Source: Oscillospiraceae bacterium
GTDB lineage: Bacteria; Bacillota; Clostridia; Oscillospirales; Ruminococcaceae
DNA length: 49,087 nt
Assembly: GCA_017436575.1 (NCBI GenBank)
Contig: JAFSCU010000053.1
Span: forward strand, 1 to 49,087
Direction of reading: 5' to 3'
Positions 32,706-48,946 of this stretch are shown here, in pieces. Each line of letters begins with the position of its first letter. Position 1 is the first letter of the stretch. A program made the translations under genes and the position numbers. Below the pieces are notes generated by a model. That model saw nothing but the letters and a program-made list of their open reading frames with translations, was not told the DNA's origin and did not search any database.

Positions 32706-32734
32706 AAAAATGCAGGTCGACTGACCTGCATTTT
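32706..32734 (-). terminator. Terminator, copy 2 of a repeated hairpin
   Basis: The same AAAATGCAGGTC-GACT-GACCTGCATTTT hairpin as at 30265, here just after the coiled-coil gene ending at 32743, with TTTTTATCTG beyond it on the minus strand. Confidence 0.85.
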
Positions 32735-32742
32735 CCTTTTTA

Positions 32743-33153
32743 TTATTCAACTGTTTCTTCCACAACTGTATCTTCAGCTGCTTTTTCTTCAGCTTCCGCA
32801 GCTTTTGCTGCTTCTTTTTCTGCTTTAGCAGCTTCTCTTGCAGCTGCTCTTTCAGCCTTTGCTGCTTCTTTTTCAGCTGCAATTTCTGCATTAAGTTTTT
32901 CAATATCAGCTTTTGCCTGTGCAATTGCATCCTGATGTGCCTTTGCAGACTGCAGAACAGGAAGAATATTTGGTTCTACTGTGCCACCATTTATAAAGAA
33001 TTCATAATAGAATTCACCAATTCTTCTGATATCCATTGTGAAACCATTTTCACCGGCTGTAATTGCTGCATTGTAGTTTGACATCTCAATAGCATCTGCT
33101 GTCTTATCCTCAATAGTTTTAGCCATTTTGTTAAGTTTGTCTAAAAATGCCAT
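32743..33153 (-). CDS. Coiled-coil protein, zinc-ribbon-less paralogue
   Basis: A 136-residue cytoplasmic protein whose first 115 residues are, by eye, about three quarters identical to the N-terminal part of the protein at 46217-46798 (MAxLDKLNKxAKxIEDKT, IGEFYYxFFINGG, VEPNILPVLQSAKAH). A long Ala/Glu/Lys helix follows, a probable coiled coil. The paralogue continues into a zinc ribbon; this copy stops after a Glu-rich tail, so the ribbon has been lost or was never acquired. Proteins of this kind, usually with a zinc ribbon, are common in Firmicutes and of unknown function. Start 33153 is set by GGAGG eight bases upstream. It is monocistronic. Confidence 0.8.
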   Translation of the reverse strand: MAFLDKLNKMAKTIEDKTADAIEMSNYNAAITAGENGFTMDIRRIGEFYYEFFINGGTVEPNILPVLQSAKAHQDAIAQAKADIEKLNAEIAAEKEAAKAERAAAREAAKAEKEAAKAAEAEEKAAEDTVVEETVE

Positions 33154-33405
33154 AATGTAATCCTCCATTCATAATTTACGAACACATATTCTAATATAAA
33201 TATATACTATAACACCTGAATATATCAATAGCTATTAATAATTTCTAATGAAAAATTTACATATTTAATCAAAATATCATTAATACTTGAATTATCTTAT
33301 AATAATACAAAAGAAATAATGATACTGCCCTTTTACGCTAAAATTTCACATTTTCATATATTCCGCCTTTCAAGTTGGTAAAATGATATGTGTAATAACC
33401 TGAGT

Positions 33406-33552
33406 AAAATAAAAAGCCGGACATCAAGAATCAAGGGGTTATTACTCCCTTAATTCCCAATGTCCGGCTATTTGGTAACTCGTTGGGTGCATCAGCACCA
33501 CGGATCCGTTGCTCGGTACAAAGTGTACACATATTCAATTTTAACAACTATC
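33406..33552 (-). ncRNA. Candidate small RNA, about 147 nt
   Basis: On the minus strand, a perfect consensus promoter starts a transcript at about 33552. It begins with a 5' hairpin (ACAACT-GAT-AGTTGT), continues through GTACCGAGCAACGGATCC and a GGTGC-TGAT-GCACC hairpin, and ends in a long stem GCCGGACAT/ATGTCCGGC (33416-33468) whose interior also pairs (GAATTAAGGG with CCCTTGATTC), followed by TTTTTATTTT. No coding frame is apparent. I do not recognise the family; it is not 6S, SRP, tmRNA or RNase P by length and motifs. Confidence 0.7.
33416..33468 (-). terminator. Long terminator hairpin of the 33-kb small RNA
   Basis: A nine-bp outer stem, a small internal loop and a ten-bp inner stem form a nearly continuous 53-base hairpin, followed on the minus strand by a T-run at 33406-33415. 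Confidence 0.8.
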
Positions 33553-33558
33553 AGTTGT

Positions 33559-33587
33559 ATTATACAAACAAAATCACAGTTTGTCAA
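33559..33587 (-). promoter_or_regulatory. Perfect consensus promoter of the 33-kb small RNA
   Basis: Minus-strand TTGACA (33582-33587), exactly 17 bases, TATAAT (33559-33564): both hexamers and the spacing match consensus. It starts 11 bases past the stop codon of the 33598 gene. An ACAACT-GAT-AGTTGT palindrome overlaps the start point. Confidence 0.85.
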
Positions 33588-33597
33588 GCGATTTTGA

Positions 33598-36261
33598 TTA
33601 ATGCCCAGGTAATACACCCTGAATATTCTCTTCAAAGGTAAAACCACCAACGGTGATTTTGCCTTTGGACTGCGTTCTGACAACATTTGTAATCTTGCCG
33701 CTTAACGGGTCTTTGTACTGTGACTTGGTTGTGGTAGTTTCGGCTGTACTGCCCAGCAGGCCGCCACCACCGGAAACAGATGTGGTGCGGTAAGTAGAGC
33801 GGTCTATAAGATTGCCGTCTCTGTCATAAACTTCGATAGAGCCTGTAGTCTGGCGTGCATCAATGCTTGGCAGGCCGGCAACAATCTGTCCCTTTGCCAT
33901 ATCCACAACATTGTCCAGTGTAACAAGGGCGCCTTCAATCTCCCTTAAGTTTTCAATTGTGTCATACAAGTCTTTCAGGCCGGCAACAGTTTTGTCCAGC
34001 TGACCAAGGCCGGGCAGACCGGCAAGGGTAGTGGATGCAACATTTTTGGATGTATTGCCTGTTTTAAAATCGTGTTCATAGATAACATCGTGGCCGAACG
34101 CACCGTAGCCGTAGCTAATGTTGCCGTCCTCTGTATAGCCGATATAAACCTGGATAGGACTGAATGGCGGGAAGCCCAGCTGATAGGAAGATGAACGCTG
34201 CTGCCGTTCTGCCTTTGCTTTTTCAAGGCGGGCACGCTCTACATTGGCCTGTGCCTGTTGGTTGGCAGATTCTATTTTTTTCTCTTCTGCCATTTCCAGT
34301 TTTCTGCGGCATCCGTTTATAGTGCCAGCATATTTGTTTACTTCCACAAGTTCCACACCTGATAAACTGAGAGGTGTTGTAATACCTTCGGTATTTATTG
34401 TCCACAGCACTCGTTTTTCAAAGTTTTTGCGTGCGGTGTCATTAGTCATATAACCAAGGATAGCGTTCATGCGCTGCCAGTATTCTTCAAGAATAGGTCG
34501 GGTAATCTGTTCATAACCACGCATTTTGGCTTCTTCCATCTTTTTCAGGTCGGTATGCCATATATTCTGCACCTCTGTGTAGGCGTTCAAAGTGATTTTG
34601 GTCATCTCTATCTGATATGGTTCCCAGTGTTCCATTGCCCATTTGCCTTCAGCCTGTGCCAATGCAACAACCTGGTCAGGGTCTTCTGTAAAAGGTGCCC
34701 CCATTGTACCCAGCACAAAACTGTAAGCAGCAATATAAAGTTCTTCCCACAGTGCAGCAATCTGTTCTTCTGCCGGTTCTATTATAGAGTTGGCCTTTTC
34801 ATAAAACTGTGCTTCCAGTCTGTCATATTCTTCGCTAAACATTGCCATACTTGCACTGTTATTTTCAATCAGCCATTCATAATAAAAAATATGGAAGCGT
34901 GCTATAAAATGGTGTCGGTCATCATTACCGTTGGCATAGCCTTCGTAATGGCGGGCATCGTAATAAAGAGCCTTTATCTGCTGGTACAAAGCTTCCGCCT
35001 GGTCGGAATAGCTTTTTTCTGCTGTAAGGCAGGCAGAGGTCACAGGTGCCGGGAAAGGCAGTGAAATCTGTTCGGACAGTTTGTCGCGGCCGTCTGATGT
35101 GGTACCGTAGCTTACCGCCTCCATAAGAATATCAAGATGTTCTTTTGTAATAGGCATTTTATCATAGCGGTCAACATAGTCTGTCACATAATTAAATGCC
35201 AATCTGAAAAGTTTGGTATGCATGTCTGTCCAGCTGGCACGGGCAGATTTGAACAGTGATGTGATAAACTGGTCAAAAGTACCGCCGCCCTGTGCATAGA
35301 TATAAGCCTTGATAAGATGAGGTATACCATAGTCTTCCTGACAGGCAATAGCCATATCGCAGTAAACCAGTGCCATACTGAAATCGCCCAGTTCGTAGCA
35401 ACATTCTGCCATATTGGTAAGGATAAACACATTATGTGGATTTGCCCGGTCTGCCTGATAAAGCCAGGTAAGAGCTTCTTTGAACTGCCCGCGTTCCATA
35501 AGCAATGAGGCATAGTTGTTGATAAGGTATGTATTGGGGTAAATCATACAGGCTGCCGCCATGGCATTGACAAGATTGCCATCCACCTGACCGGATGCCA
35601 GCAGATTTGCGGCATAGTCTCCCATACTGATAAGGTAATCTGCCTTTTCTTCGCTGGTCAGCGGTGCCAGTTCATTGGCAAGATACAGCATATAGTATTC
35701 CACGCTGTTGGATGTAACCCTGTCGTCTTCCACCGGCAGTATATTAATCAGCGCTGTGGCGGTTTTATCACCCCGCACAGCATTAACAACACATTGGCCT
35801 GCCTCTCTGGCTGTAAAAGAAAAGTTCTTTTTGTTTTTCACCTTATAGTCAATCAGGCTTTCGTCAGAAACTGTAAATGTGGTTTCTTTGCCACTGATAA
35901 AAGGTGTCCAACTGTCTTCTTCATTTACTTCGAGAACAAAAAAGTAGTCATAGTCTTCTTCTTTAAGTTCATACTGTATTGCCGGTGCATCGTTTTTCAG
36001 TGTAGCCACCAGTTCTTTATTTGCACCTATGGATTTTTCATTCAGTTCGGCGAAAACAGTCTGCTGACTTTCATAAAAATCATCGGTGTCGGGGATAATA
36101 TCCCCATTTTCCTGCTGTTTTACAGGCATATCATTTTCGCCAAGTACAGTATTTGGGATGGAATTGGTCTGAGGCGTATCGGAATTTTCTCCACTGCCGC
36201 CACAGGCGGTCAGCTGAAAAAGCATAACAAAGGAAAGCAACACTGATATAAGTTTTTTCAT
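33598..36261 (-). CDS. Lipoprotein with Ig-like, TPR and YD-like C-terminal regions
   Basis: An 887-residue lipoprotein. The signal peptide ends LTAC with the lipid-attached Cys at residue 20. After a Ser/Thr/Asn linker come an Ig-like region (about 105-175, with TTFTVSDES and GQCVVNAVRGDKTATALINI), TPR-type helices (about 230-320, with ALTWLYQADRANPHNVFIL and CCYELGDFSMALVYCDMAI), a long helical middle ending in a charged coiled coil (AQANVERARLEKAKAERQQR), and a C-terminal module starting PPFSPIQVYIGY with a YD-repeat-like EVYDRDGNLIDRSTYR. The protein at 42660-45134 has the same order and many shared motifs, so the two are paralogues. GGAGG lies seven bases before 36261. It is probably the last gene of the lipoprotein operon. 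Confidence 0.8.
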   Translation of the reverse strand: MKKLISVLLSFVMLFQLTACGGSGENSDTPQTNSIPNTVLGENDMPVKQQENGDIIPDTDDFYESQQTVFAELNEKSIGANKELVATLKNDAPAIQYELKEEDYDYFFVLEVNEEDSWTPFISGKETTFTVSDESLIDYKVKNKKNFSFTAREAGQCVVNAVRGDKTATALINILPVEDDRVTSNSVEYYMLYLANELAPLTSEEKADYLISMGDYAANLLASGQVDGNLVNAMAAACMIYPNTYLINNYASLLMERGQFKEALTWLYQADRANPHNVFILTNMAECCYELGDFSMALVYCDMAIACQEDYGIPHLIKAYIYAQGGGTFDQFITSLFKSARASWTDMHTKLFRLAFNYVTDYVDRYDKMPITKEHLDILMEAVSYGTTSDGRDKLSEQISLPFPAPVTSACLTAEKSYSDQAEALYQQIKALYYDARHYEGYANGNDDRHHFIARFHIFYYEWLIENNSASMAMFSEEYDRLEAQFYEKANSIIEPAEEQIAALWEELYIAAYSFVLGTMGAPFTEDPDQVVALAQAEGKWAMEHWEPYQIEMTKITLNAYTEVQNIWHTDLKKMEEAKMRGYEQITRPILEEYWQRMNAILGYMTNDTARKNFEKRVLWTINTEGITTPLSLSGVELVEVNKYAGTINGCRRKLEMAEEKKIESANQQAQANVERARLEKAKAERQQRSSSYQLGFPPFSPIQVYIGYTEDGNISYGYGAFGHDVIYEHDFKTGNTSKNVASTTLAGLPGLGQLDKTVAGLKDLYDTIENLREIEGALVTLDNVVDMAKGQIVAGLPSIDARQTTGSIEVYDRDGNLIDRSTYRTTSVSGGGGLLGSTAETTTTKSQYKDPLSGKITNVVRTQSKGKITVGGFTFEENIQGVLPGH

Positions 36262-36297
36262 CTGCATTCCTCCTTTTAATTATAAATTATGATATTG

Positions 36298-36324
36298 CAG
36301 TGGGCGAATACAGTTCGCCCACTG
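36298..36324. other. Intercistronic hairpin
   Basis: CAGTGGGCGAA-TACAG-TTCGCCCACTG, an 11-bp perfect stem between two lipoprotein genes. The minus-strand flank has no T-run, so it is more likely an mRNA-stabilising or partially attenuating hairpin than a full terminator. Confidence 0.55.
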
Positions 36325-36351
36325 TATATTTCTGTGATACTTAAAGTCTGT

Positions 36352-37800
36352 TTACCAGAACAGTGATTCTTCATCAGGTGAAATAATCAGCTGCATACAG
36401 TTTTCATCGCCGTCAAAGTTGTGGTAACAGCCAATCCAGTATTTATCGTTGTACTTGAAGTATGCCACATAGGAATCATCTTCTTCGCTGTAAACATATT
36501 CGTTCCATTCTTCACTTGGCAGGCCACGGAGATAGTCGATGTAATAGTCGTATGTTGCTCTGTCTACGCCCATATAATTAAAGTCATAGTGTATATAGGC
36601 AGCTTCATCAATAAAGCATCCGTTTTCAAAATCGTATTCAAAATCATATATTTCATTGAATTCTTCGTCATAGGCGTAAATCAGATAGTCATTTCCTTCG
36701 CCTTCAAACAGGCCCCATGTAGGCAGTTCGATACCTTCAAAGAACAGTGGGTAGTTGCTTTCCAGCACTGTCATATTACAATAGATAAAACAGTCGTATC
36801 CGTCACGGTCGCTTTCATCGATTGTGTAGTACAGATAGATTTCACCATCTGTTGTTTCCACATAAGTGCCCTGATATTTGTCTTCTGTCTTTTCGCCCAG
36901 GAAGCCGTTGTCAGCCAGTGCCTTTTCAAACTGTGCCAGCTGGTCATCTGTTGCGTCAAATTCCAGAATCCACTGTTCATATTCCCAGTCTTCAAAGTAC
37001 ATATTGCCAACTCTGGCGCCCATCCATCTGTCTTCACAGCCAAAGCCGAAATAGCGTGTCTGGTCCACTCTTACGCCAGGGATTTCCCGTGGGAAGTTTG
37101 CAGGCAGCACTTCGCTATCCCAGACTTTGTCAATATAACCGTGGCAGTCCTGCCATGTCCAGCCTTCAGGGCCCTGACCTTCCTGCGGAACCCAGTCGCT
37201 GATGTCGATTTCATAGTTAAGGGTTGCATATGTAAATGTCATAGACACTGCTGTGCCATCCTGCATATAACTGAACTGCACATTTTTGCCATTGTAGTCA
37301 TACAGCCACATCACAGAGTAGAAATCGCCATAGCCTTCGTTTTCATTGGTATAGAAATCTGCAAAGTCTGTGTACTGTGTGCCTTTGGATATTGCAAAGG
37401 TATCCCAGTCGATTTCCTGTGCCCATACACCGCTGAGTTTAACAGCCTGATTGAAATATTTTTCTATTTCGGCCTGGCCGTCTGTGCCGGCTGGAATGGT
37501 AAACACAAGGTCTACATTGTTTACACCATTAGGGCTTTTTGCAGTTGTAACTGTCCAGCCGTCATCAATTATATCCAGGCCGAAATACTGTTTTACAATA
37601 TCTTTGTAGTTGTCAGCAGAAATTGATGACAGTGATACGGCAGGGGCCTGACCGCCCTGCTGTGTGCCTGTCTGTGTACCGCCCTGCTGTGTCTGCCGGT
37701 TGCCCTGATTATCTGTGTTTGTGCCGCCTTCGCTGCCGCCACAGGCAACCAATGAAAACATCATAGAAACAGCAAGGAATAAAGCCAATATTTTTTTCAT
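36352..37800 (-). CDS. Acidic, aromatic-rich lipoprotein
   Basis: A 482-residue lipoprotein with signal MKKILALFLAVSMMFSLVAC (Cys20). A Gln/Gly/Thr linker follows (NRQTQQGGTQTGTQQGG), nearly identical to the linker of the 39254 lipoprotein. The body is strikingly rich in Tyr, Trp, Phe, Asp and Glu (for example YDFEYDFENGCF and DYYIDYLRGLPSEEW), giving a very low predicted isoelectric point. It may contain two similar globular halves (about 55-185 and 195-330), each ending in an ATLNYEIDI or DDQLAQFEKALADNGF type segment. I recognise no named family. Surface ligand or polymer binding is a guess from composition. Start 37800 follows AAAGGAG; the TTG at 37818 is rejected. Confidence 0.78.
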   Translation of the reverse strand: MKKILALFLAVSMMFSLVACGGSEGGTNTDNQGNRQTQQGGTQTGTQQGGQAPAVSLSSISADNYKDIVKQYFGLDIIDDGWTVTTAKSPNGVNNVDLVFTIPAGTDGQAEIEKYFNQAVKLSGVWAQEIDWDTFAISKGTQYTDFADFYTNENEGYGDFYSVMWLYDYNGKNVQFSYMQDGTAVSMTFTYATLNYEIDISDWVPQEGQGPEGWTWQDCHGYIDKVWDSEVLPANFPREIPGVRVDQTRYFGFGCEDRWMGARVGNMYFEDWEYEQWILEFDATDDQLAQFEKALADNGFLGEKTEDKYQGTYVETTDGEIYLYYTIDESDRDGYDCFIYCNMTVLESNYPLFFEGIELPTWGLFEGEGNDYLIYAYDEEFNEIYDFEYDFENGCFIDEAAYIHYDFNYMGVDRATYDYYIDYLRGLPSEEWNEYVYSEEDDSYVAYFKYNDKYWIGCYHNFDGDENCMQLIISPDEESLFW

Positions 37801-37831
37801 AATAAAATCTCCTTTCAAACTGTTTTATGTT

Positions 37832-38611
37832 TTATTCTGAAGCACTGTCAGAAGAACTGTTTGCTTCCAGACTGCCCAGTGCACCTATAAGCGCCTCGAA
37901 ATCTATAGAGCCTTCTTCGCCGGTGAACTGTTCCAGAATACCATTGATTTGTTCCGTATCGATACCTTCAAGGTTAAGTTCGCCTTCGCCGCCAAGAATA
38001 CCTGTAACGCTGTCAATAAGACCTGCCATATCTGCCAGTTCTTCCGGAAGCATACCTTTGTCTTCAAGAAAGTCCATAACAATTTCTGTGCTGATGCCGT
38101 TTTCCTTGATGGCCTGAACATCAATGCCTGCTTTTTCGATAGCCATATTCACCGCTGTTTTTACAGCAAATGTAACAGCAAAGGATATAGCCAGCATTAC
38201 CACTACTGTGAGAACAGTTGCACGGGCATGATTGCGTTTGGATTTATTTTTGTTGATAAGTGCATTGAACAGACAGATTAGCCAGCCGATAACCGGTATG
38301 GCATAAAGGAAGGACATCCAGAAATAGAAACTGGTTTTAACTGTTTCAGACATATTGTCATCAGTTTTTTTATCAAAAAGCTTTCTTTTGGGCTGTTCTT
38401 CTTCTTTCTGTGCATAAACAGGCGGCTGTGGTGCAGGTTGCTGTATAGGCTGTACAGGCTGTGGCCGTGGTTCCGGCTGTGCATATACAGGTTTCTGCGG
38501 GGCCGGACGTGAAATTTCTTCCACCTGCTGTACTACTTTTGCACCGCATTCACCACAGAAAGTGGCATTTTCCTTTAATTCACTGCCGCATTGTCCGCAA
38601 AATTTTGCCAT
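37832..38611 (-). CDS. Zinc-ribbon membrane protein
   Basis: A 259-residue protein starting with a zinc ribbon (Cys5, Cys8, Cys19, Cys22 in FCGQCG and FCGECG), then a Pro/Gln-rich flexible linker (about 35-75, PxPQPVQPIQQPAPQPP), two hydrophobic segments (about 98-120 and 137-158, SFYFWMSFLYAIPVIGWLI and ATVLTVVVMLAISFAVTFAV), and an acidic, Gly/Leu-rich C-terminal domain. The zinc ribbon is expected in the cytoplasm, so the acidic tail probably is too if there are two membrane passes. Ribbon-plus-membrane proteins of this layout are common in Firmicutes but uncharacterised. Start 38611 is set by GGAG; the upstream ATG overlaps that site. It lies 15 bases after the 38627 gene. Confidence 0.82.
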   Translation of the reverse strand: MAKFCGQCGSELKENATFCGECGAKVVQQVEEISRPAPQKPVYAQPEPRPQPVQPIQQPAPQPPVYAQKEEEQPKRKLFDKKTDDNMSETVKTSFYFWMSFLYAIPVIGWLICLFNALINKNKSKRNHARATVLTVVVMLAISFAVTFAVKTAVNMAIEKAGIDVQAIKENGISTEIVMDFLEDKGMLPEELADMAGLIDSVTGILGGEGELNLEGIDTEQINGILEQFTGEEGSIDFEALIGALGSLEANSSSDSASE

Positions 38612-38626
38612 AATTTTCATCTCCTT

Positions 38627-39244
38627 TTATCCGTTTATATTGTCGAGATATGTCTGATAGGCTATATCTCTGGTGTAGCCGGAAAACATATACTGCATCC
38701 ATTCACCATTTATACCAATCTGTATTTTACCGTCACGTTCTTTGCCGGAGTAATCAATGGTCACTGTTTCAGTTTCTCCGTCAAAATCCACTTCGGCTAC
38801 AATGGTCTGCTCACCATCGTTATACATATAGGTCACAATACCTTCTTTATAAAATTCTGTATCCCACATTCCGTATGCAAAAACGGCTGTGTGACTGTCT
38901 GCCATATCTGTCAGGGCAAAACGGCCTTCGGCAGCGTTCCACCAGCATACAATTTCTGCCCACTGTTCATACATTGCGAAATCTGTTTCTTTGATTTCCG
39001 GTGTAGGCTGTGGTGTGGTTTGTGGTGTTGGCTGTGGTGTTGCAGACGGCTGTGATTCATCCTGTTTGTCTGTATCAGAATTTGTCTGTGGCAGTGAGGA
39101 GTTTTCCTCACTGCTGTTTGTTGGCTGTGTATTTTCCACAGGCTGTGATGAAGAATCGCCCTGTGGGGTAACATTGATTGTAATGCAGGCTGTCATAGAC
39201 AAAGCCAGCACAACTGTAAATGCAAATAAAATTAATCGTTTCAT
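38627..39244 (-). CDS. Small lipoprotein
   Basis: A 205-residue lipoprotein with signal MKRLILFAFTVVLALSMTAC (Cys20). A long Ser/Thr/Pro/Gln linker (about 25-85, including PQPTPQTTPQPTPE) serves as a stalk across the cell wall. The globular part of about 120 residues has MYEQWAEIVCWWNAAEGRF near residue 95 and an alternation of short strands after it (VTIDYSGKERDGKIQIGIN). I recognise no family. It starts nine bases after the 39254 gene and ends 15 bases before the zinc-ribbon membrane protein, so it is embedded in the operon. Proline-rich stalks suit proteins exposed at the surface. Confidence 0.77.
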   Translation of the reverse strand: MKRLILFAFTVVLALSMTACITINVTPQGDSSSQPVENTQPTNSSEENSSLPQTNSDTDKQDESQPSATPQPTPQTTPQPTPEIKETDFAMYEQWAEIVCWWNAAEGRFALTDMADSHTAVFAYGMWDTEFYKEGIVTYMYNDGEQTIVAEVDFDGETETVTIDYSGKERDGKIQIGINGEWMQYMFSGYTRDIAYQTYLDNING

Positions 39245-39253
39245 ATATCCACC

Positions 39254-41146
39254 TTAATTACCGCTCATGTCCAGCACTGTATAGCCGGACGGAATATTGA
39301 ACAGACTGTCGTCAACATCTGCGGAATAATCCAGTATTTTTATAACAGCTTCCCCTGTACCCGGGTCAGAAATAATATAGGCCAGTTTATTGCCGTCAAA
39401 GCACATTGTAACTTTGTCGCCGTCCATTACCCAGCTTTCTGTATCATATTTTTTGCCGTCAATTTCACGGCTGCCCTTTTCAAGCTGTGTCATATCCACA
39501 TCATTTTCGGTGATAACCTTGCTGGCAACTGTCATAAGGTCGTTCTGCAGAGCCATTTTGATAATAAGTTTGCTGGAATGTTCGATAACATACATATCCT
39601 TGCCGTCTATAACTGAACAGCCTGTGGCCTCTCCGTTCAGATAGTTTTCCATATAAGCTTTGTCACCCTTTGTAGCTGTAACCATACGTGTAAGCTGTCC
39701 GTCAATTACAAGCTCATAATCCATTTTGATTGCGCCGGATGTGAAAACAGAATAGAATCTGCCTGTTTTTGTACCCACAAAGTCAGAAACAGAAACCTGC
39801 GGGGTATTATCTTTTTCATCAGCCGGCTTTGCTGTTGGTGAAGGCTGTGGTTTGTCTGCTTTTGGTGTAGCTTCAGGTGTCCGGGCAGGTGTTAGCTGTG
39901 GGTTTATACTGGCTGTACCGTCATTAAGCTGCACACGTTCATCCCATGTAAGACTGCTCAGTTCACCTTTTTCAAATATCTGGAATGTCATAACTGCTGC
40001 TATTTTACCATTTGCTGTAAAAAGCATATCATAGTATCCAGGCTGTAAGTTATCGTCTGTATAATCTGCACCCCAGTAGCTATCTGGATCTTTTGGATTG
40101 TGCAGTTCCAAGAAAAAATCACAATCTGAATCTGCCCATTCAGCATCGCGTTTGCTGTAATCCAGTGTTTCATCGTGGTACAGGTAATATACATTAAATG
40201 AGTCTGCATCACTAACTGGATAAAACCACAAAAATTCTCCACACTCAAAAATACTGCAAATGCCTGTTGTGGCCCGCTGGCGGTCATTCAGACTGCCACC
40301 ATTATCGCTTTCAATTCTCAGGGCGGTAATTGCTGATTTGTCAAATATCTGCAGTGTACCCAGCTGTACATTCTGTGGCTGTGGTTTGTCTGTTTCAGGA
40401 GACTGTGCTGGCACCTGTGCATCTGAAACATCCACCCACATTGCAGGGCGGATAGCGTAAGCACCAGAGTAGCCATAGCTGCCGTTGTAGTCAATTTCAC
40501 CGCTGCTGTCCTGTATAATCATTGCAAAGTAGCTTTCTTCTCCGCCTGCTGTACGCAGATACTGGCCAACAGGGCTGCCCTGTGCATCATAAACTACGCG
40601 GTCCTGTGGATTTTCAAAGTATTTTTCCACTTCTTCTGTGCTGAGCAGGAACAGCCTGTCTGTTGTATCATTGCCTGAAGAAACGCCTGTTTTTGGGTTT
40701 GCAGGGTTTGATACAGCTGTTTTGAGAATAAATTCCTGTTCCCGTGGTGTAAACATAACATCCAAATTCGGCTGAAAATTAAGATATTCTCTTACCTGAC
40801 TGTTTTCCCATGTATGCACTTCATCGTCTGCAAACATATACATAGTGTCAATATAGCCGTCCATAATCAGCAGCGCTTTGCTGTTTTCTGTGTCAACATC
40901 AAGCACCAGCCATTTGTATGGATTTTCCCGTTTGTCTCTGCCAAAGCCTGACAGATTGATAACCTGTGAAACCAGTTTTTCTTTTTCTGACTGTGTCAGC
41001 TGTCCGGTCTGCTGTGTGCCGCCCTGCTGTGTCTGCCGGCTGTCAGGTGCAGAGTTGTCGCCCTGTGAAGTTTCACCCGACGTACTGCAGGCTACCATAG
41101 ACAGCACCATAGCAAAAGTGAGCAATAAAGCCAATAATTTTTTCAT
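39254..41146 (-). CDS. DUF6273-type lipoprotein
   Basis: A 630-residue lipoprotein, signal MKKLLALLLTFAMVLSMVAC (Cys20), followed by a linker (DSRQTQQGGTQQTGQ) shared with the 36352 lipoprotein. Residues about 45-235 (YKWLVLDVDTENSKALLIM, VHTWENSQVREYLN, LFLLSTEEVEKYF, AYAIRPAMWVD) match the DUF6273 domain widespread in secreted clostridial proteins. A middle region and a Pro/Thr stalk (about 405-435) follow. The last 190 residues (YELVIDGQLTRMVTATKGD, CSVIDGKDMYVIEH) look like a lipoprotein-type beta half-barrel, possibly LolA/LppX-like, which is a guess. Start 41146 follows AGGAG. It is mid-operon. Confidence 0.8.
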   Translation of the reverse strand: MKKLLALLLTFAMVLSMVACSTSGETSQGDNSAPDSRQTQQGGTQQTGQLTQSEKEKLVSQVINLSGFGRDKRENPYKWLVLDVDTENSKALLIMDGYIDTMYMFADDEVHTWENSQVREYLNFQPNLDVMFTPREQEFILKTAVSNPANPKTGVSSGNDTTDRLFLLSTEEVEKYFENPQDRVVYDAQGSPVGQYLRTAGGEESYFAMIIQDSSGEIDYNGSYGYSGAYAIRPAMWVDVSDAQVPAQSPETDKPQPQNVQLGTLQIFDKSAITALRIESDNGGSLNDRQRATTGICSIFECGEFLWFYPVSDADSFNVYYLYHDETLDYSKRDAEWADSDCDFFLELHNPKDPDSYWGADYTDDNLQPGYYDMLFTANGKIAAVMTFQIFEKGELSSLTWDERVQLNDGTASINPQLTPARTPEATPKADKPQPSPTAKPADEKDNTPQVSVSDFVGTKTGRFYSVFTSGAIKMDYELVIDGQLTRMVTATKGDKAYMENYLNGEATGCSVIDGKDMYVIEHSSKLIIKMALQNDLMTVASKVITENDVDMTQLEKGSREIDGKKYDTESWVMDGDKVTMCFDGNKLAYIISDPGTGEAVIKILDYSADVDDSLFNIPSGYTVLDMSGN

Positions 41147-41179
41147 ATAATTCAACTCCTTTTGTAAAGAAATAATTTA

Positions 41180-42643
41180 CTATATAAGTGTCAGTCTTCC
41201 GTCTATTTCACGATCAAGATGCTGATGAGTGGTAAGATATTCTTCTATTACATCTTTTTCGGATGTGGAAACCACTGTGATTTTCCTGTTTGCCTCCACC
41301 TCTGCCAGAGGTATGCCAAGAAATTCTTCAAAATTTACAAAATGATATTTTTCCAGACCGATTTTAAACAGCCGGCTGTCTGTTATCGGTATGCCATTGA
41401 AAGAAAATTCCAGCAGCTGTTTTTTCTGCCTGTCATAAACCACTTTCAGACCTTTTGAAAGCTGATAGAATTCTGTATGAGCACCCTGCCATACTTCGTC
41501 ACGCAGCACATACAGCATCATCTTTTTCAGCTGACTGCCTGTGACTGTAAGCATATATACCGGGTCATCATAAGGCAGGCACCGGGTAAAATCTGCAAAT
41601 GTAACCAGCGGACCCATTTCTTTCAGTCGTATGCCGCCGCTGCCCATCAGCATAATATCCAGCCCCAGGCTTTCCTGCAGTATGTCTGACAGCAGACCAC
41701 CCAGCTCTGTCTCCCTGTATCTGTCCGGGTGGGTAAGCCGTCTGTTGAAACGGGTAATAACCCTGCCGTATTTTTTGTCAGTTTCAGATTTATACCTGTT
41801 CAGAACCTTTTCAATTTCCGGGTCGGGCACGCAGTTGTGTTCATTTATTTCAACAGACTGCCAGTTATAGCTATCAATACAGTTTTCCTGTGTGTCAACC
41901 ACTATATCAAAACGACCTATACAGTCTGTGCCTGTACCTGCCTGTACTATTGGAATACCATTTACAATTTCCGGTTTTTCAAGGAAGGTGTGGGAATGTC
42001 CGCCGATAATAATATCCACACCCCAGTTACTGTCCAGTATTGCAGCCAGCTGTTTGTCTTCTTCAAAGCCGATATGGGTAAGCAGCACCGTAAAGTCAAT
42101 ATCAGTGGAATTATAGGCATTGCATATTCTGCCTATTTCTGCCGCTGCCTCATGTATATCCACAAAGGAACCAATCAGCTCATCTTTTTTCGCCTGTGCA
42201 ATTACTTCCTCGGTGATAATACCGATAAACAGTATTTTCATACCGTCAATTTCAATTATTTTGTAAGGGTTAAACAGACGGGTAAAATTTGACTTTATGT
42301 ACAGATTTGCGTTTATAATCGGAAACTTTGCACATTTTTCAAGAAACAGCAGATGTGAAAGGCCATAGTCGATTTCGTGGTTGCCCAGAGTAACCACATC
42401 AGGCGAAATGGCGTTCATAATCTCAATGGTACTGATGCCCTTGTAGTCAGAATCTATTACTGACCCGCGGAACATATCCCCTGCTATGCAGTAAACTGTA
42501 TTTTTTTCTTCTTTTCTCACTCTGCTGATATAGCCTGACAACAGACTGACGCCACCTGTCAGCTTTTCGTCGACTGTTTCTGCAGTAAAATCCCCGTGCA
42601 TATCATTGGAATGCAATAGGGTTATTTTTTTATATCTCTCCAT
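41180..42643 (-). CDS. 5'-nucleotidase/UshA-family metallophosphoesterase without signal
   Basis: A 487-residue two-domain protein of the UshA/YunD family. The N-terminal metallophosphoesterase domain has LLHSNDMHGDF (metal ligands Asp and His, about residue 10), IAGDMFRG (about 55), LGNHEIDYGL (about 87) and IIGGHSHTF (about 214). The C-terminal 5'-nucleotidase domain covers the last 220 residues, with GGLLSDILQ and GGIRLKEMG. Family members hydrolyse nucleotides, cyclic nucleotides or NAD-type compounds. There is no signal peptide or membrane segment, so it is expected in the cytoplasm (as for YunD) although its neighbours are exported lipoproteins. GGAGAG precedes the ATG. It lies 16 bases after the 42660 gene. 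Confidence 0.88.
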   Translation of the reverse strand: MERYKKITLLHSNDMHGDFTAETVDEKLTGGVSLLSGYISRVRKEEKNTVYCIAGDMFRGSVIDSDYKGISTIEIMNAISPDVVTLGNHEIDYGLSHLLFLEKCAKFPIINANLYIKSNFTRLFNPYKIIEIDGMKILFIGIITEEVIAQAKKDELIGSFVDIHEAAAEIGRICNAYNSTDIDFTVLLTHIGFEEDKQLAAILDSNWGVDIIIGGHSHTFLEKPEIVNGIPIVQAGTGTDCIGRFDIVVDTQENCIDSYNWQSVEINEHNCVPDPEIEKVLNRYKSETDKKYGRVITRFNRRLTHPDRYRETELGGLLSDILQESLGLDIMLMGSGGIRLKEMGPLVTFADFTRCLPYDDPVYMLTVTGSQLKKMMLYVLRDEVWQGAHTEFYQLSKGLKVVYDRQKKQLLEFSFNGIPITDSRLFKIGLEKYHFVNFEEFLGIPLAEVEANRKITVVSTSEKDVIEEYLTTHQHLDREIDGRLTLI

Positions 42644-42659
42644 ACTCTCTCCTGTATAA

Positions 42660-45134
42660 TCAGTAAGACATTGACACTAAGCCAAAGCTTAAATCTGTTT
42701 TTGTTTCACTGCTCCACTGGCTGCCAAGATATCCTTCGTGGATACCGCTTCCCTTTGTATAAGTGGTAGTCTGTCCGCCTGTAATACCGCCCAAAGAGCC
42801 GCTTATGCTTTCTTCCCTTATGGTAGTAACATCTTTCAGCCTGCCAAATTCATCATAGGTGTAGGTTTTGCCTTCACCCTTTGTTCTGTCAAAGGATGGT
42901 ATAGCACCAACCGGATTCAGCTTGCCGTCAATAAAATCCTTTATGCTGGTGGCATCTGCCACATCTTTTAAATCACCGATAAAACCGCTGAGTTCTCCCA
43001 GACCTGCAGGCAGTACAGATGAACGTGTAATAATTGTTTCGCTGAACATACCTGTATACATATCACGTTCTTTGATAATTTCTGTACCGAATGCACCGTA
43101 TGCAAAGAAGTATTTATCTCCATTATTGCCGAATTTTACATAAATTGGGCTGAATGGCGGAATTGTAATATTGATGTCTGCAGGGCGCCAGTCGCTTTCT
43201 TTATCAGGCTTATAATCTGACAGTTGTCCGTTTTCGGTTTTATTTGCCATAATTCTGGCATCGTTGCGCTTTGCCTTGTTCAGTTCATCCTTGTAGTATT
43301 CCATACCAAGACTTTTTCTGTGCATATTGGCAACTTCCAGGCATTCATCACCTGTACTGATATATGCACCGGCATGATACAGAGGGTTTACGTAGGCTTC
43401 ACGGTTTATTACCGCCAGCAGTTTTGTACCATACATCTCCCTTACATGTTCATTGGACACATAGCCCAGCATGGCATTCATTTTCAGCCAGTATTCCTCC
43501 AGCAGCGGACGCATATTTTCTTCATACAGTTCCATTCTGCGTGTGGAATATGCAATATGTGCCCGGTCTGCAGGACCAACCAGTTTGTATTCGCACTCCA
43601 TTTTTGCACGGATTTCATCTTTCAAAGATTTTGCATTGTCTATGGCGTCATACATAACCTGATGGTGCTGTTCACTGATGTTCCAGTAGTTCACCAGAAT
43701 TTTCTGCAGCCGGTCATCAGCATCCCACTGCAGATTTGACAGTGTATATTCTTCAAAGTCTTTGTCATAACCGCTTTCGCCTGTTTCTTCAAAAGTAACA
43801 CCCCTGTACATAACGTCATACAGCTGATAGATTTTGTATTCGTAATAGGTGTGCAGGAAAGCAAGACACCACGCCTGACGTTCTTCCATATCTGCGCCGC
43901 CTACTGTATAGCCTTTTGTAGCTTTCAGCATTTCTTCCACTTCTTTGTCTACAGCAGATGCCGCTGAATCCCACATATCATCACCCAGCACAGCATCGGC
44001 AGGGTTTGCAGGATATGGCAGGGAAATCCGATTGGCCGGTATATCCTGCCCGTTGGATATAACCCCTGCGGCAGCTGCTTCGAACAGCAGTTCAATGTGG
44101 TAATCCGTCAGCACCATTTCCCCCAATTCAAAACTGATGTAGGTGTCCATACCTTTTACCATTTTTTCATAGCTGGTTGAATCTGTAAGGCCGGCTTTTG
44201 TTCTTACCTGTCGGTATAAATTCCTCAATAAATCAGAAGTGGTTTCTGTATAAGTGGAACGCATTGACTTGAACAATGTTTCTATTGCCAGCATATCATC
44301 GCCGTTCTGCAGATGAACACAGGTCATAACAAGGTGTGCCAGCCCGTAACCGGGGTCTGCTGCCACAGCTTTGCCAGCCCATTCCATAGCACCGGTGTAA
44401 TCCCCCAGTTCATAATAGCAAATAGCCAGATTTGTGTATAAAACAGCATTTGGCTCGTTTGCTTTTACACCTATCTCCAGCCAGTTGGCAGCATAGCGGT
44501 ATTCCAGTGCACCCATAAGAACTGCCGCAAGATTGTTTATCATATATGTAGTAGGGTATATCATAGCCGCTGCCTGTCCCATATTTATCATATTCCAGTC
44601 AAACTCACCTGACACAAGGGACAGAGCCATATAGTCAGCTATTGAATTGAAATATTCTATCTGGTCAGCCTCACTCCAGCCGGCCAGTTCAGTTTCAAAA
44701 TAGTTCAGCCAACCCAGGACTTTGCCGTCTGTGGAGGCTGTTTCAATATATTGGTCTCTGACAGTTATAGTCACTGTCATCTCTTTTCCGTTACATTTTG
44801 CAGCAGCTGCAGTCTGCCCCGCTTTAAGTGCAGTAAATGTGGCGGTGTTCTCTTCTGATTTAACAGAAACTATATCTTCATCTGAAACAGAAAATTCCGT
44901 GTTTTCATCAAAAGGTGACCATATTCTGCTTCCACCAACAAACATAATCATTTCGTCTGTCTGCACAAGGGAAATAACCCCAGGTGTTAGCTGTGGCTGT
45001 TTTACCGGCTGTGATGTAGTTTCTGTTTTTGTACTGTTGCCCTGAGAAGATGCATCTGTATCTCCATTTACGCCACAGGCAACAAGAGAAAAAAGCATTG
45101 ACAAAGAAAGTACAATACATATTATCTTTTTCAT
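42660..45134 (-). CDS. Lipoprotein with Ig-like, TPR and YD-like regions (paralogue)
   Basis: An 824-residue lipoprotein, signal MKKIICIVLSLSMLFSLVAC (Cys20), paralogous to the 33598 protein. It has the same order: Ig-like region (about 60-130, with TEFSVSDEDIVSVKSEEN and a GQTAAAAKCNGKEMTVTI strand), TPR helices (about 190-270, with NEPNAVLYTNLAICYYELGD and AMEWAGKAVAADPGYGLAH), a helical middle ending in a charged region, and the C-terminal PPFSPIYVKFG...GAFGTEII module with YTYDEFGRLKDVTTIREES. Start 45134 is set by GGGAGG seven bases upstream; the longer frame to 45197 is rejected. An intercistronic hairpin lies upstream at 45173-45206. It follows the zinc-ribbon gene and leads the lipoprotein part of the operon. 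Confidence 0.82.
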   Translation of the reverse strand: MKKIICIVLSLSMLFSLVACGVNGDTDASSQGNSTKTETTSQPVKQPQLTPGVISLVQTDEMIMFVGGSRIWSPFDENTEFSVSDEDIVSVKSEENTATFTALKAGQTAAAAKCNGKEMTVTITVRDQYIETASTDGKVLGWLNYFETELAGWSEADQIEYFNSIADYMALSLVSGEFDWNMINMGQAAAMIYPTTYMINNLAAVLMGALEYRYAANWLEIGVKANEPNAVLYTNLAICYYELGDYTGAMEWAGKAVAADPGYGLAHLVMTCVHLQNGDDMLAIETLFKSMRSTYTETTSDLLRNLYRQVRTKAGLTDSTSYEKMVKGMDTYISFELGEMVLTDYHIELLFEAAAAGVISNGQDIPANRISLPYPANPADAVLGDDMWDSAASAVDKEVEEMLKATKGYTVGGADMEERQAWCLAFLHTYYEYKIYQLYDVMYRGVTFEETGESGYDKDFEEYTLSNLQWDADDRLQKILVNYWNISEQHHQVMYDAIDNAKSLKDEIRAKMECEYKLVGPADRAHIAYSTRRMELYEENMRPLLEEYWLKMNAMLGYVSNEHVREMYGTKLLAVINREAYVNPLYHAGAYISTGDECLEVANMHRKSLGMEYYKDELNKAKRNDARIMANKTENGQLSDYKPDKESDWRPADINITIPPFSPIYVKFGNNGDKYFFAYGAFGTEIIKERDMYTGMFSETIITRSSVLPAGLGELSGFIGDLKDVADATSIKDFIDGKLNPVGAIPSFDRTKGEGKTYTYDEFGRLKDVTTIREESISGSLGGITGGQTTTYTKGSGIHEGYLGSQWSSETKTDLSFGLVSMSY

Positions 45135-45172
45135 TAATGCCTCCCCCTTAATAAACATTTTCCGTAAACACA

Positions 45173-45206
45173 CAGGGTCGGTCGGCTGTAACGCCAACCG
45201 ACCCTG
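45173..45206. other. Intercistronic hairpin
   Basis: CAGGGTCGGT/ACCGACCCTG, a 10-bp stem with an inner GGC/GCC pairing, in the 114-base gap between the zinc-ribbon and lipoprotein genes. The minus-strand 3' flank (TGTGTGTTTACGG) is a poor T-run, so termination would be partial. Confidence 0.55.
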
Positions 45207-45248
45207 CAGGTTAGTGTAAGTCGTTATACTTGTCTGATATTTATAAAA

Positions 45249-46214
45249 CTATTTACCGAAAAGACTTTTGAAATTTTTAAAGCCTTCTTTCAGCTCTTCC
45301 AGTTCTTTTTTCTTTTCATCGCCCTTTTTATAGTAGAATCCGCCTGTTGGTTCCTGTTCGTTGAAATACAGGCTTACAGTATCGCTGTCTCCGTCAAAAG
45401 CGTGTTCAAGATCTACATGGTAACATACACCGTCAACCATTTTGTACAGCTGGCCTTCGTTCGGATACTGACCGGCAGTTACAAATCCGTCTTCTTTAAG
45501 TGCCAGCGTATACTGCTTAACTGCATTTACTGCCGCAAAAGATGTATGGAAAGTAGCCATAAATCTTATGTACTCTCCTTCATTTTCAAGGTAGAAATCC
45601 TTACCGCCCTGTGTCCATTTTGTGTAATGTGGCATATATTCATCCCACAGTGCCATTGCAGAGTCCTGTTTGGACTGTGCTGCCTGGTCTTCTGCTACTG
45701 CTGATGGCAGTTTTGTGCCACAATCAGAACAGAATTTTGTGCCAATATCATTCTGCTTACCGCAGTTTGGACATTTTGCTCCTTCTGCCAATGTCTGCTC
45801 CGGCATTTTTGTGCCGCAGTTTGGACAGAATTTTTTATCTGCATCCACTGGCTCACCACAGCCTGGGCAAACTTTATACTTTTCGCTCATTTCAGTTGCA
45901 TAGTCCTGTGCCATTCCTGCAAGACTGGCAAACGCAGATTTCAGCTGGTTCATATCAACATTCTGTGACCGGGCTGCTGCTTCTGCCACAGCTTCACCTG
46001 TTTCGGCTGCAGCCTGTTTTGCATTTGCCCTTGCCAGTTCAGTCTGTTTTTCAACTTCTTCCATTTTCTTTTCCGCAAAGTCTTCCATTTTCATTGCTGC
46101 CTTATTGGCAAGATTTGTAGCTGCAGGTTCCACTGCTTCTTTTACAGCTTTGCTTACCGCATCATTTATTCCTTTACTGATACTGTTTTTTAATGCTCTT
46201 TTAAGAAAACTCAT
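45249..46214 (-). CDS. Coiled-coil double zinc-ribbon protein
   Basis: A 321-residue cytoplasmic protein. Residues about 1-105 are helical and Ala/Glu-rich (a likely coiled coil with LARANAKQAAAETGEAV). Two zinc ribbons follow, Cys116/119/130/133 and Cys148/151/162/165. A C-terminal domain of about 130 residues rich in aromatics comes next (YMPHYTKWTQGG, FHTSFAAVNAVKQYTLALKEDG, SLYFNEQEPTGGFYYKKG), then a charged helical tail. Its composition recalls the 36352 lipoprotein, but homology is unproven. I recognise no named family for the C-terminal domain. It starts two bases after the 46217 gene, so translation is coupled. GGAGG precedes ATG 46214. Confidence 0.8.
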   Translation of the reverse strand: MSFLKRALKNSISKGINDAVSKAVKEAVEPAATNLANKAAMKMEDFAEKKMEEVEKQTELARANAKQAAAETGEAVAEAAARSQNVDMNQLKSAFASLAGMAQDYATEMSEKYKVCPGCGEPVDADKKFCPNCGTKMPEQTLAEGAKCPNCGKQNDIGTKFCSDCGTKLPSAVAEDQAAQSKQDSAMALWDEYMPHYTKWTQGGKDFYLENEGEYIRFMATFHTSFAAVNAVKQYTLALKEDGFVTAGQYPNEGQLYKMVDGVCYHVDLEHAFDGDSDTVSLYFNEQEPTGGFYYKKGDEKKKELEELKEGFKNFKSLFGK

Positions 46215-46216
46215 AA

Positions 46217-46798
46217 TCAAACCTCCATTTTGTATCCGCAGTCACCGCAGAATTTTGTACCCGGGTCAACAGCTGCACCACAGGACGGACAGATATTTGC
46301 CTCTGCCACCACAGCTGTGTTTTCAGCATCTGCTTCCGGTTCACCTTCTGCATATTCAGGTGTTCCGGTTTCAGCCAGCGGCACCGGTGTTTCTGCAGCA
46401 GGCTCTTCATCAACAACAGCTTCCTCTGCATTTTCTGTTTCAGCAAGGCGGGCAGCTTCCTTTTCTGCTTTTGCAGCTTCTCTTGCAGCTGCTCTTTCAG
46501 CTTTTGCAGCCTCTCTTTCAGCAGCATTTTCTGCATTGATTCTTTCAATTTCAGATTTTGCTTCAGCTATAGCTTCCTTATGTGCTTTTGCAGACTGCAG
46601 GACAGGCAGGATGTTTGGCTCTACCTGACCTCCATTGATAAAGAAATCATAATAGAATTCACCTATCTTTTTGATATCGCTGTTGAAACCATGTTCTGAA
46701 GATGTGATAGTTGCGCTGTGTTTTGAAAGTTCAATAGCGTCACCTGTCTTGTCTTCAATATTTTTTGCCAGTTTGTTCAGTTTGTCCAGTAATGCCAT
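46217..46798 (-). CDS. Coiled-coil zinc-ribbon protein
   Basis: A 193-residue cytoplasmic protein: N-terminal MALLDKLNKLAKNIEDKT, a globular stretch IGEFYYDFFINGG and VEPNILPVLQSAKAH, a long Ala/Glu/Lys coiled coil (about 75-115, EREAAKAERAAAREAAKAEK), a Pro/Glu/Ala-rich linker, and a C-terminal zinc ribbon with Cys170/173/184/187. The 32743 protein is a paralogue of its first 115 residues. This domain layout is common and uncharacterised in Firmicutes. It starts 14 bases after the LuxR-type gene and two bases before the double-ribbon gene, at the head of the operon. Confidence 0.82.
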   Translation of the reverse strand: MALLDKLNKLAKNIEDKTGDAIELSKHSATITSSEHGFNSDIKKIGEFYYDFFINGGQVEPNILPVLQSAKAHKEAIAEAKSEIERINAENAAEREAAKAERAAAREAAKAEKEAARLAETENAEEAVVDEEPAAETPVPLAETGTPEYAEGEPEADAENTAVVAEANICPSCGAAVDPGTKFCGDCGYKMEV

Positions 46799-46812
46799 AG
46801 TTTACCCTCCTT

Positions 46813-47088
46813 TTAGTCAGCCAGCTTACGGTATTTTATTAAAAACTGTCGTCTGCTGGATACATTAAGTTTTTTATAAATATTTTTACAGTGAAAGTGA
46901 ACAGCAGATTCGGATATAAACAAATCTTCAGCAATATGGTTCAGCGTTTTATCTGATAAAAGCTGTTCAAATATTTCCAGTTCTCTTGTGGAAAGATTTA
47001 TCAATTCCGGATACTGCTGTGTCAGCAAATCAAACCGTTCCCTTGCCAGCTTCATATATCCGAAATAGCTTAATTTACTGCTATCCAT
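46813..47088 (-). CDS. Minimal LuxR-type DNA-binding protein
   Basis: A 91-residue protein consisting almost only of a LuxR/GerE helix-turn-helix: LSTRELEIFEQLLSDKTLNHIAEDL, then FISESAVHFHCKNIYKKLNVSSRRQFL (recognition helix). No receiver or ligand domain is present, so it either dimerises through its short N-terminus or partners another protein. It heads the minus-strand operon and is divergent from a membrane protein bearing the same type of domain, so the two are probably the dedicated regulators of the cluster. GGAGG precedes ATG 47088. A TATAAT lies in the leader, but no good -35 is evident. Confidence 0.85.
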   Translation of the reverse strand: MDSSKLSYFGYMKLARERFDLLTQQYPELINLSTRELEIFEQLLSDKTLNHIAEDLFISESAVHFHCKNIYKKLNVSSRRQFLIKYRKLAD

Positions 47089-47404
47089 ATCTGCTCCTCC
47101 TTTACAGTTGTTTATGTATAATTATAAATTCAATTCTTTTTTTCAACCACTGACTGTATTGACTGTTTTTCTGTCTTTATAGATAGTTTTACTATGCTTA
47201 AACACAGTTTTATTATTTACATAATTATTTTTATAGATTATAATTTGTTCATCAAAGCTAATTTGTGAAAATTAATTTCAATACAATTGTATAATTACCA
47301 GGCCGGATTTGGTATCCCTTATTCAAGGGGTTTTAATAAAACCTGCCCTTGTTTACAGAATTATTACACTGTGCAACAGCAAAACTGTCTGAAAGGAGAA
47401 TAAT
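47089..47404. other. Divergent regulatory region
   Basis: The 316 bases between the two LuxR-type genes are AT-rich. They contain GACTGT repeats (47153-47165), an ATAGT-TTT-ACTAT dyad near 47185, a TATAAT at 47290-47295 that is the likely -10 for the rightward gene, and the alternative hairpins described at 47316-47351. I see no gene in it. Confidence 0.5.
47316..47351 (+). promoter_or_regulatory. Leader with mutually exclusive hairpins
   Basis: CCCTT-ATTC-AAGGG (47316-47329) competes with CAAGGG...CCCTTG (47324-47329 with 47346-47351), which encloses the perfect GGTTTT-AAT-AAAACC hairpin. The arrangement sits in the 5' leader of the membrane LuxR gene, about 55 bases before its ATG, and could switch between two structures. 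Confidence 0.4.
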
Positions 47405-48859: not shown

Positions 48860-48885
48860 AGTTAATGTATAAATAAATGTAATAA

Positions 48886-48918
48886 AAGCCCTGACAGGAA
48901 TAAAACCTATCAGGGCTT
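48886..48918. terminator. Terminator of the membrane LuxR gene
   Basis: AAGCCCTGA/TCAGGGCTT with an inner AGG/CCT pairing, 26 bases after the stop codon. Confidence 0.75.
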
Positions 48919-48946
48919 AAGTTATTGTAATATATAAAAAACAAAA

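Follow-up and report, generated by a model that had tools for sequence, protein, structure and literature searches.

A ten-gene locus with a divergent membrane regulator

The window analyzed here is the 49,087-nucleotide contig C53 of an Oscillospiraceae bacterium genome (2.1 Mb in 54 contigs; labeled G000). Its subject is a set of ten minus-strand genes at positions 33598 to 47088, designated g1 to g10 in order of transcription, together with a divergently transcribed regulator gene, luxR2_mem. An earlier note on this DNA, made from the sequence alone, had described ten same-strand genes with small gaps. All ten were found at the ends given there, and with ATG starts preceded by Shine-Dalgarno sequences the gaps are 14, 2, 114, 16, 33, 9, 15, 31, and 90 bases. 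The set comprises five lipoproteins (g4, g6, g7, g9, and g10), one LuxR protein, three zinc-ribbon proteins, and one leaderless UshA-like enzyme of the 5'-nucleotidase family, and this composition, likewise proposed in the earlier note, is supported by Pfam and by the lipobox pattern. The note had also placed LuxR regulators in one operon. That is true of g1; the second LuxR gene, luxR2_mem, is divergent and lies outside both the operon and the coordinates that the note had covered.

The luxR2_mem gene (47405 to 48859, plus strand) encodes a protein with nine hydrophobic segments on the Kyte-Doolittle scale followed by a C-terminal GerE helix-turn-helix (HTH) domain (E value, 6.2e-17), and no other Pfam domain was matched. 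The 91-amino-acid g1 product (46813 to 47088, minus strand, as are all g genes) is a stand-alone GerE HTH (9.5e-17). Both share the C-terminal GerE HTH of LuxR-type one-component regulators, from which they differ in that luxR2_mem has a multi-transmembrane part and g1 consists of little more than the HTH. Pfam supported zinc ribbons in three further proteins. The g2 protein (46217 to 46798) is coiled-coil-like with a C-terminal ribbon (Zn_Ribbon_1, above the cutoff), g3 (45249 to 46214) has two ribbons (DZR, 2.1e-17) and a conserved C-terminal part without an assigned family, and g8 (37832 to 38611) has an N-terminal ribbon (Zn_Ribbon_1, 6.8e-7) and two hydrophobic, transmembrane segments. 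The N termini of g2 and g3 are amphipathic, with a hydrophobic moment of 0.55.

The g5 enzyme (41180 to 42643) matched Metallophos (3.3e-11) and 5_nucleotid_C (6.7e-15), the two domains of the UshA/YunD family. It starts MERYKKITLLHSNDMHGDF, and neither a secretion signal nor a hydrophobic segment was seen in it. In this it is unlike UshA, and its score against the NCBIfam UshA equivalog model was 153.6 bits, far under the 600 bits required. By family description it stands beside YunD, an uncharacterized protein of 462 amino acids that is presumably cytosolic.

Two of the lipoproteins, g4 (42660 to 45134; 824 amino acids) and g10 (33598 to 36261; 887 amino acids), are 31% identical to each other. 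The TPR parts ascribed to them in the earlier note stood narrowly for g10 (TPR_19, 25.6 bits against a 25-bit cutoff) and for g4 appeared only below the Pfam cutoffs, and the Ig-like parts were not borne out, as no Pfam Ig family matched the N-terminal part of g4 or g10 up to an E value of 1. The g6 lipoprotein (39254 to 41146) contains a DUF6273 domain (9.9e-15), which is C-type-lectin-like. It shares this domain with proteins of Clostridia and their phages and differs from them in being a lipoprotein with about 390 further residues. The small g7 lipoprotein (38627 to 39244) and g9 (36352 to 37800), whose body was seen in this genus only, had no Pfam match.

A lipoprotein signal peptide and lipobox were called by pattern in all five proteins, and the lipobox cysteine is residue 20 in each, as the earlier note had claimed, provided that g4, g6, g9, and g10 are taken to start at an internal ATG. 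In a regular-expression scan, Cys20 was present in 18 of 19 module lipoproteins, compared with 3 of 8 non-module lipoproteins from the genome of the window and 1 of 8 from elsewhere in the genus; the sample, consisting of loci in hand, is biased, two having been obtained via signal-peptide DNA matches. The exception is the g4 of one relative (G005) and depends on the start chosen. Since Cys20 also occurs in those non-module lipoproteins, it is not private to the module.

The module is conserved in relatives and accessory

Conservation of the gene neighborhood, set beforehand as the test of the earlier note, was examined in the genus. Three relatives with the module are metagenome-assembled genomes labeled "Oscillospiraceae bacterium": G008 came from the rectum of a roe deer, G009 from the colon of a sheep, and G005 from the rectum of a goat. 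G008 has all ten genes and luxR2_mem in the same order at 95% DNA identity to the window; the block common to both spans 33408 to 49002, and the sequence of G008 differs on both sides, where its flanks are short (0.7 and 1.3 kb). G009 is a distinct species and carries nine of the ten genes, with luxR2_mem divergent from the order Bx-g1-g2-g3-g9-g10-g5-g6-g7-g8. Relative to the window, G009 lacks g4, has an additional gene for a small Cys-rich protein, Bx, and carries the g9-g10 block at another place. In G005 the genes are split between two contigs, the first with the last part of g3, then g4, g9, and the beginning of g10, and the second with the remainder of g10 and g5-g6. A fourth genome, G004, has g5-g6-g7-g8 on a 4.7-kb contig; g3, g4, and g10 were not found in it, and it is the one exception to co-occurrence. 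The set was found together in a distinct species, with its blocks reordered, and the test therefore did not yield the refuting result that the earlier note had named. The open reading frame (ORF) caller loses genes beneath longer antisense ORFs, and g1, g7, and g8 of G009 were recovered by tblastn; loci examined by ORF caller and BLAST alone may hide further genes.

Across the 16 genomes of the genus, g4/g10 was present in four, and g3 was present in the same four. Within and beyond the genus, orthologs were found for g1 in G008, G009, and G177, for g3 in G008, G009, G005, and G137, and for luxR2_mem in G008, G009, G137, and G177. In the comparison of G000 with G009, conservation is highest for g9 (76%) and g10 (83%; 98% for its other ortholog). 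The ratio of nonsynonymous to synonymous substitution rates (dN/dS) was below 0.35 in 18 of 20 module gene comparisons and at most 0.61; the highest values, for g8 (0.61) and g2 (0.48) between G000 and G008, are based on few changes, and the G000-G009 comparison of g1 was saturated. The low dN/dS and the persistence of the set in relatives argue that these genes are together beyond chance. Independent functions of chance neighbors would accord with the block order that varies between species and with the hairpins that separate blocks; that explanation is largely refuted by co-occurrence and adjacency in distinct species and by the core in other genera described below, and we consider it hardly credible. 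The observation made in the earlier note is confirmed as that of a real, conserved module.

The module is accessory. Two relatives, G011 and G012 (listed completeness, 100% and 80%), share the flank of the window, with rlmA at 82 to 83% and neighbor genes at 79 to 98% protein identity and with a gene designated g11 near rlmA. The module is not beside this flank in either genome, and searches of both for g3 and g4/g10 found nothing.

The regulator and zinc-ribbon core extends to two other genera

A g2 profile matched 25 of 197 genomes of the family, 13 of them in the acidic/zinc-ribbon part only. Matches to the N-terminal part of g2 fell at 11 places in 10 genomes of other genera, and each neighborhood was examined. 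In G137, a luxR2_mem (41% identical) is divergent from Bx-g2-g3, with g2 51% identical over 87 residues and g3 about 45% identical, and the contig stops 0.4 kb after g3. In G177, a luxR2_mem (51%) is divergent from g1 (59%) and g2 (46%), and the contig stops inside g2. Judged from this gene content and order, the core, a membrane LuxR gene divergent from small LuxR and zinc-ribbon genes, extends to two other genera. In G148, G023, and G154, which resemble one another, the gene for a different membrane LuxR, whose GerE domain Pfam recognized only in L148, stands in one row with genes for a lipoprotein, a g2-type protein, and a TPR membrane protein. In the other five genomes no membrane LuxR was found near the g2-type gene, several of the contigs being short and ORF calling imperfect. 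G189 has g8-like, g3-like, small-LuxR-like, and g7-like pieces near a g2-type gene.

No full-length relatives of g4, g9, or g10 were found outside the genus. Among 297 genomes drawn from the family, g4 matched six; two were G000 and G009, and in the other four the match was to the signal peptide and no longer than 58 residues. Phylum-wide, a g4/g10 profile matched 36 of 398 genomes, G000 included; with at most two candidates scored per genome, the listed matches other than G000 covered the TPR part or signal peptide only. A g9 profile matched 54 of 391 genomes of the class, again including G000, and outside G000 the matches started at profile residue 1 to 3 and reached at most residue 147 of 485. 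Other families of the phylum have TPR proteins of 607 to 763 amino acids with a coil and a glycine-rich end (L088 to L096), an architecture like that of g4/g10. Eight of this size were considered as g4/g10 relatives; profile comparison aligned 135 TPR columns (98%) and the end gave an E value of only 0.006, which is suggestive, and no relationship is claimed.

An invariant 22-bp element precedes luxR2_mem

The strongest result of the analysis is an invariant 22-bp element, M1, TATCCCTTATTCAAGGGGTTTT (47313 to 47334, plus strand), which is letter-for-letter identical upstream of luxR2_mem in all five orthologous regions (G000, G008, G009, G137, and G177), in one orientation throughout and 26 to 82 nucleotides before the luxR2_mem start. 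The luxR2_mem proteins of the other two genera are only 41 to 51% identical to that of the window, and M1 is invariant nonetheless. Outside M1, the longest words shared among four of the upstream regions (G008 was left out as a near-copy) are at most 12 nucleotides, and shuffled G000 and G009 upstream regions shared words of at most 14 nucleotides in 300 trials. G000, G008, and G009 each have a single exact copy of the 16-bp core of M1, and the remaining 13 genomes of the genus have none. The recognition part of the HTH is near-identical across the five M1-associated proteins; the distant membrane LuxR of L148 (18 to 23% identical), which also lies beside a g2-type gene, has a different HTH and no M1.

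Because 22 bp are identical across three genera while the proteins are 41 to 51% identical, M1 is probably the operator of luxR2_mem. M1 could instead act in the leader RNA as an attenuator of luxR2_mem, since, in the direction of the gene, its sequence can pair into a hairpin of 5 bp ahead of a T-rich stretch, and its single orientation at a short distance from the start would suit such a role. However, across three genera M1 varies at no position, the loop included, and shows no compensatory change, and its symmetry together with the conserved HTH fits a GerE site, so that we find the leader hairpin doubtful as an alternative to a protein-binding operator. A second candidate operator, on a weaker basis, is M2, an inverted repeat, ATAGTAAAACTAT (47183 to 47195, minus strand), upstream of g1. 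It has a 13-nucleotide match to the region upstream of g1 in G009, which none of 300 shuffles reached, and a similar word adjoins M1 in G177.

Hairpins and unequal histories within the gene set

A 15-bp terminator- or attenuator-like hairpin follows g3 (45172 to 45207, minus strand). It is strong in all three contexts folded, with z scores of −4.9 in G000 before g4, −6.4 in G009 before g9, and −6.7 in G005 before g4, and its U-run is present in G009 and G005 and hardly so in G000. Because this strong hairpin follows g3, the regulator and zinc-ribbon genes are perhaps expressed more strongly than the lipoprotein genes. A further hairpin, lying between g9 and g10 (36296 to 36326, minus strand), had a z score of −5.9 in G000, compared with −0.7 in G009, which is not significantly stable; its sequence is similar in G009 and G005 and different in G008.

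Synonymous divergence between G000 and G009, calculated by the Nei-Gojobori method, which is unreliable near saturation, was 0.82 to 0.91 in g6, g9, and g10 and 1.76 to 3.02 or saturated in g1, g2, g3, g5, g7, g8, and luxR2_mem, with a range of 1.76 to 2.99 for g2, g3, g5, g7, and g8. As background, rlmA gave 2.43, the enzymes of locus B, a second locus described below, gave 1.25 and saturation, and the locus B regulator gave 2.23. Within g6, the DUF6273 part is low (proportion of synonymous differences, 0.34 to 0.35) and the later part high (0.62 to 0.67). Codon bias did not clearly separate the low- and high-divergence groups. Given the low synonymous divergence of g6, g9, and g10 relative to the core, we read these values as a sign that lineages later exchanged whole or partial lipoprotein genes. 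Among G009, G005, and G004, module genes are 94.7 to 98.4% identical, compared with 72 to 88% in four other genes. A recent transfer of the module between these genomes is likely; the module contigs of G005 and G004 are 4.7 to 5.1 kb, and wrong binning is possible.

A second locus shares the g5 family and a divergent membrane LuxR

The same genome has a related locus, locus B (G000:C28:6000-24000; L023), with a divergent seven-transmembrane GerE regulator accompanied by MscS and a Cys-rich repeat protein. Facing the regulator are genes for Bx, two leaderless g5-like enzymes (71% and 67%), a protein with SPFH and a double zinc ribbon, DUF4428, a DUF6935 lipoprotein, a TFIIB-type ribbon, TPM, and PF10112, which we take to be XpaC. 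Versions occur in 7 of the 16 genomes of the genus (G000, G002, G004, G005 with two, G006, G009, and G012), several of them cut by contig ends, with one to three copies of the 5'-nucleotidase. In relatives a TelA gene is added (Pfam-confirmed in G002), which was not seen in the G000 copy. Two of the nucleotidase copies look damaged, one by an in-frame stop and one by a split across frames (L060, G006:C89; L062, G005:C14). A tree was built from 18 enzymes with a single, very distant outgroup; in it the five g5 copies of the module formed one group (84/85), joined with the locus B "b" copies (94/97). The module enzyme may have originated within locus B, a reading that hinges on the root, which is unreliable. 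Shared 10-mers gave no evident operator common to the module and locus B.

In Bacillus subtilis, pspA-ydjGHI is a precedent for zinc-ribbon proteins encoded with membrane proteins (PMC8581546, PMC11237479). Locus B has counterparts of its SPFH and zinc-ribbon protein, TFIIB-type ribbon, and TPM, PspA being the exception. The module resembles pspA-ydjGHI in encoding zinc-ribbon proteins with membrane proteins and in a presumed envelope role, and differs from it in having five lipoproteins, a nucleotidase, and LuxR regulators instead of PspA, SPFH, and TPM.

Proposed function and alternatives

We propose that the ten genes and luxR2_mem constitute one accessory, co-inherited envelope module, likely run by a membrane one-component regulator, with envelope protection or remodeling as its most likely use, and we hold this proposal as a whole with about even confidence. 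The multi-transmembrane part of luxR2_mem would sense the state of the membrane or wall, and its GerE domain would bind M1 in its own promoter region and control how strongly the divergent operon is expressed, g1 possibly acting as an amplifier or co-regulator at M2. The g2 and g3 products would be cytosolic zinc-ribbon proteins docked by their amphipathic N termini on the inner membrane face, together with the two-transmembrane g8. Read-through past the g3 hairpin would yield lower amounts of g5, a putative cytosolic nucleotide or nucleotide-sugar phosphoesterase, and of the five surface lipoproteins, two predicted to be TPR-type and one lectin-like. Such a system might work in parallel to the SPFH-TPM-XpaC locus of the same genome; the g5 family is common to both loci, and each has a divergent membrane LuxR.

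Several observations weigh against this proposal. The envelope-stress function, although we consider it most likely, is drawn by analogy from locus B and pspA-ydjGHI, and Pfam found no SPFH, TPM, or PspA among the ten module proteins. PspA_IM30 was not found in the module carriers G000, G005, G008, and G009; it is present in 2 of the 16 genus genomes, G001 and G004, the latter of which has the module fragment. The hydrophobic moment of g2 and g3 barely exceeds 0.52, the value below which 90% of 42 ORFs of the window, g2 and g3 included, fall. No lipoprotein gene follows g3 in the remaining 0.4 kb of the G137 contig. The 16-bp core of M1 occurs with one mismatch at ten more sites in seven genus genomes (one for the reversed control). 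Finally, g6, g9, and g10 do not share one history with the core, and the conserved hairpins between genes suggest unequal expression of the module.

The earlier note had seen in these genes one machine spanning the envelope. This interpretation is partly supported, in that the set is co-conserved; the history of g6, g9, and g10 fits the cargo of a regulon at least as well, and a physical trans-envelope machine is something that we could only infer. The better description is an accessory, probably LuxR-operated regulon in which the zinc-ribbon core is conserved and the lipoproteins are exchangeable. More tentatively, we suggest that this may be a new class of membrane-LuxR-operated envelope module in the Oscillospiraceae, with a core of luxR2_mem, M1, g1, g2, and g3 that would form an inner-membrane platform without PspA and with an exchangeable cargo of new-family lipoproteins moving between species. 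Literature searches for parts of the module or with general terms found no description of the gene set, which is apparently undescribed. One membrane LuxR and one 22-bp site offer a concrete and testable regulatory unit for lipoproteins without known full-length relatives, and small zinc-ribbon proteins are thereby tied to a conserved gene cluster. Were the platform real, it would amount to a PspA-independent envelope response in a large family of gut bacteria.

Other functions can be assigned to the same genes. The locus could be a surface-adaptation cassette, with lipoproteins (g6 and g4/g10) that bind host or food glycans or mucus and with regulators and zinc-ribbon proteins in a controlling or chaperoning role. 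The lectin-like fold given for DUF6273 in a published model (PMC10743442) would suit this, as would the uneven, mosaic history of the lipoprotein genes and the origin of G008, G009, and G005 from ruminant hindgut. It seems to us rather less likely than envelope protection, in that g9 and g10 are the best conserved between G000 and G009, unlike typical variable adhesins, and the nucleotidase and the link to locus B are left unexplained. Nucleotide signaling, in which g5 would break down a signal inside the cell, either a nucleotide or a UDP-sugar, the LuxR proteins would read the state, and the lipoproteins would be the downstream targets, draws on the leaderless two-domain g5 kept in both loci, in one to three copies in locus B; no g5 was observed next to the core of G137 or G177, whose contigs end early, and we regard this reading as improbable.

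An anti-phage or competition system would be in keeping with a module that is accessory, patchy, and perhaps recently exchanged between species. The best match to PADLOC defense models was partial and weak (E value, 0.0022), however, and the Pfam search of the ten proteins found no nuclease or toxin domain. Viral contigs held no relatives of g9 or g10 and plasmids none of g10. A defense or phage origin had no support from these searches and is very unlikely. There was no convincing match to families of known secretion, pilus, sortase, or phage modules, in agreement with the earlier note.

Flanking genes and minor observations

Downstream of g10, after 429 bases, lie g11 (32743 to 33168) and then g12, a lipoprotein gene. 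Both were left out of the module because the gap contains a perfect promoter consensus and a likely small RNA. The g11 product is a paralog, 74% identical, of the first part of g2 (46217 to 46798), without the zinc ribbon, and g11 sits near rlmA in relatives without the module. The g12 protein has no Pfam family; its gene lies between two near-identical terminator-like hairpins (30265 to 30294 and 32707 to 32734) and is missing between rlmA and g11 in G012.

The block shared with G008 ends in the 3' end of a tRNA-Asn. Attachment at a tRNA may be the reason, but the word GGCTCCCCAAG of the tRNA-Asn 3' end recurs in scattered intergenic repeats (window 48990 to 49087; L118, 8120 to 8320; L025, 5106), and a shared 11-mer was not found at the other end. 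In G009, an integrase-like piece lies just after the module (L022, 13574 to 14017; Pfam, 19.5 bits against a 27.1-bit cutoff). The one-mismatch sites of the M1 core, which may be further regulon sites or chance, include G000:C15:177835-177850, and four of the ten are in G005.

The candidate small RNA 3' of g10 (33409 to 33590, minus strand) has a perfect TTGACA-17-TATAAT promoter, a length of about 145 nucleotides, and a strong terminator (z score, −7.0), and matched no Rfam family at the gathering score. Long copies are present on contig C4 of G000 (84%), in G008 (95%), and in G011 (81%), and the copy on C4 lies near a gene that, judged by eye, resembles a serine recombinase (L025).

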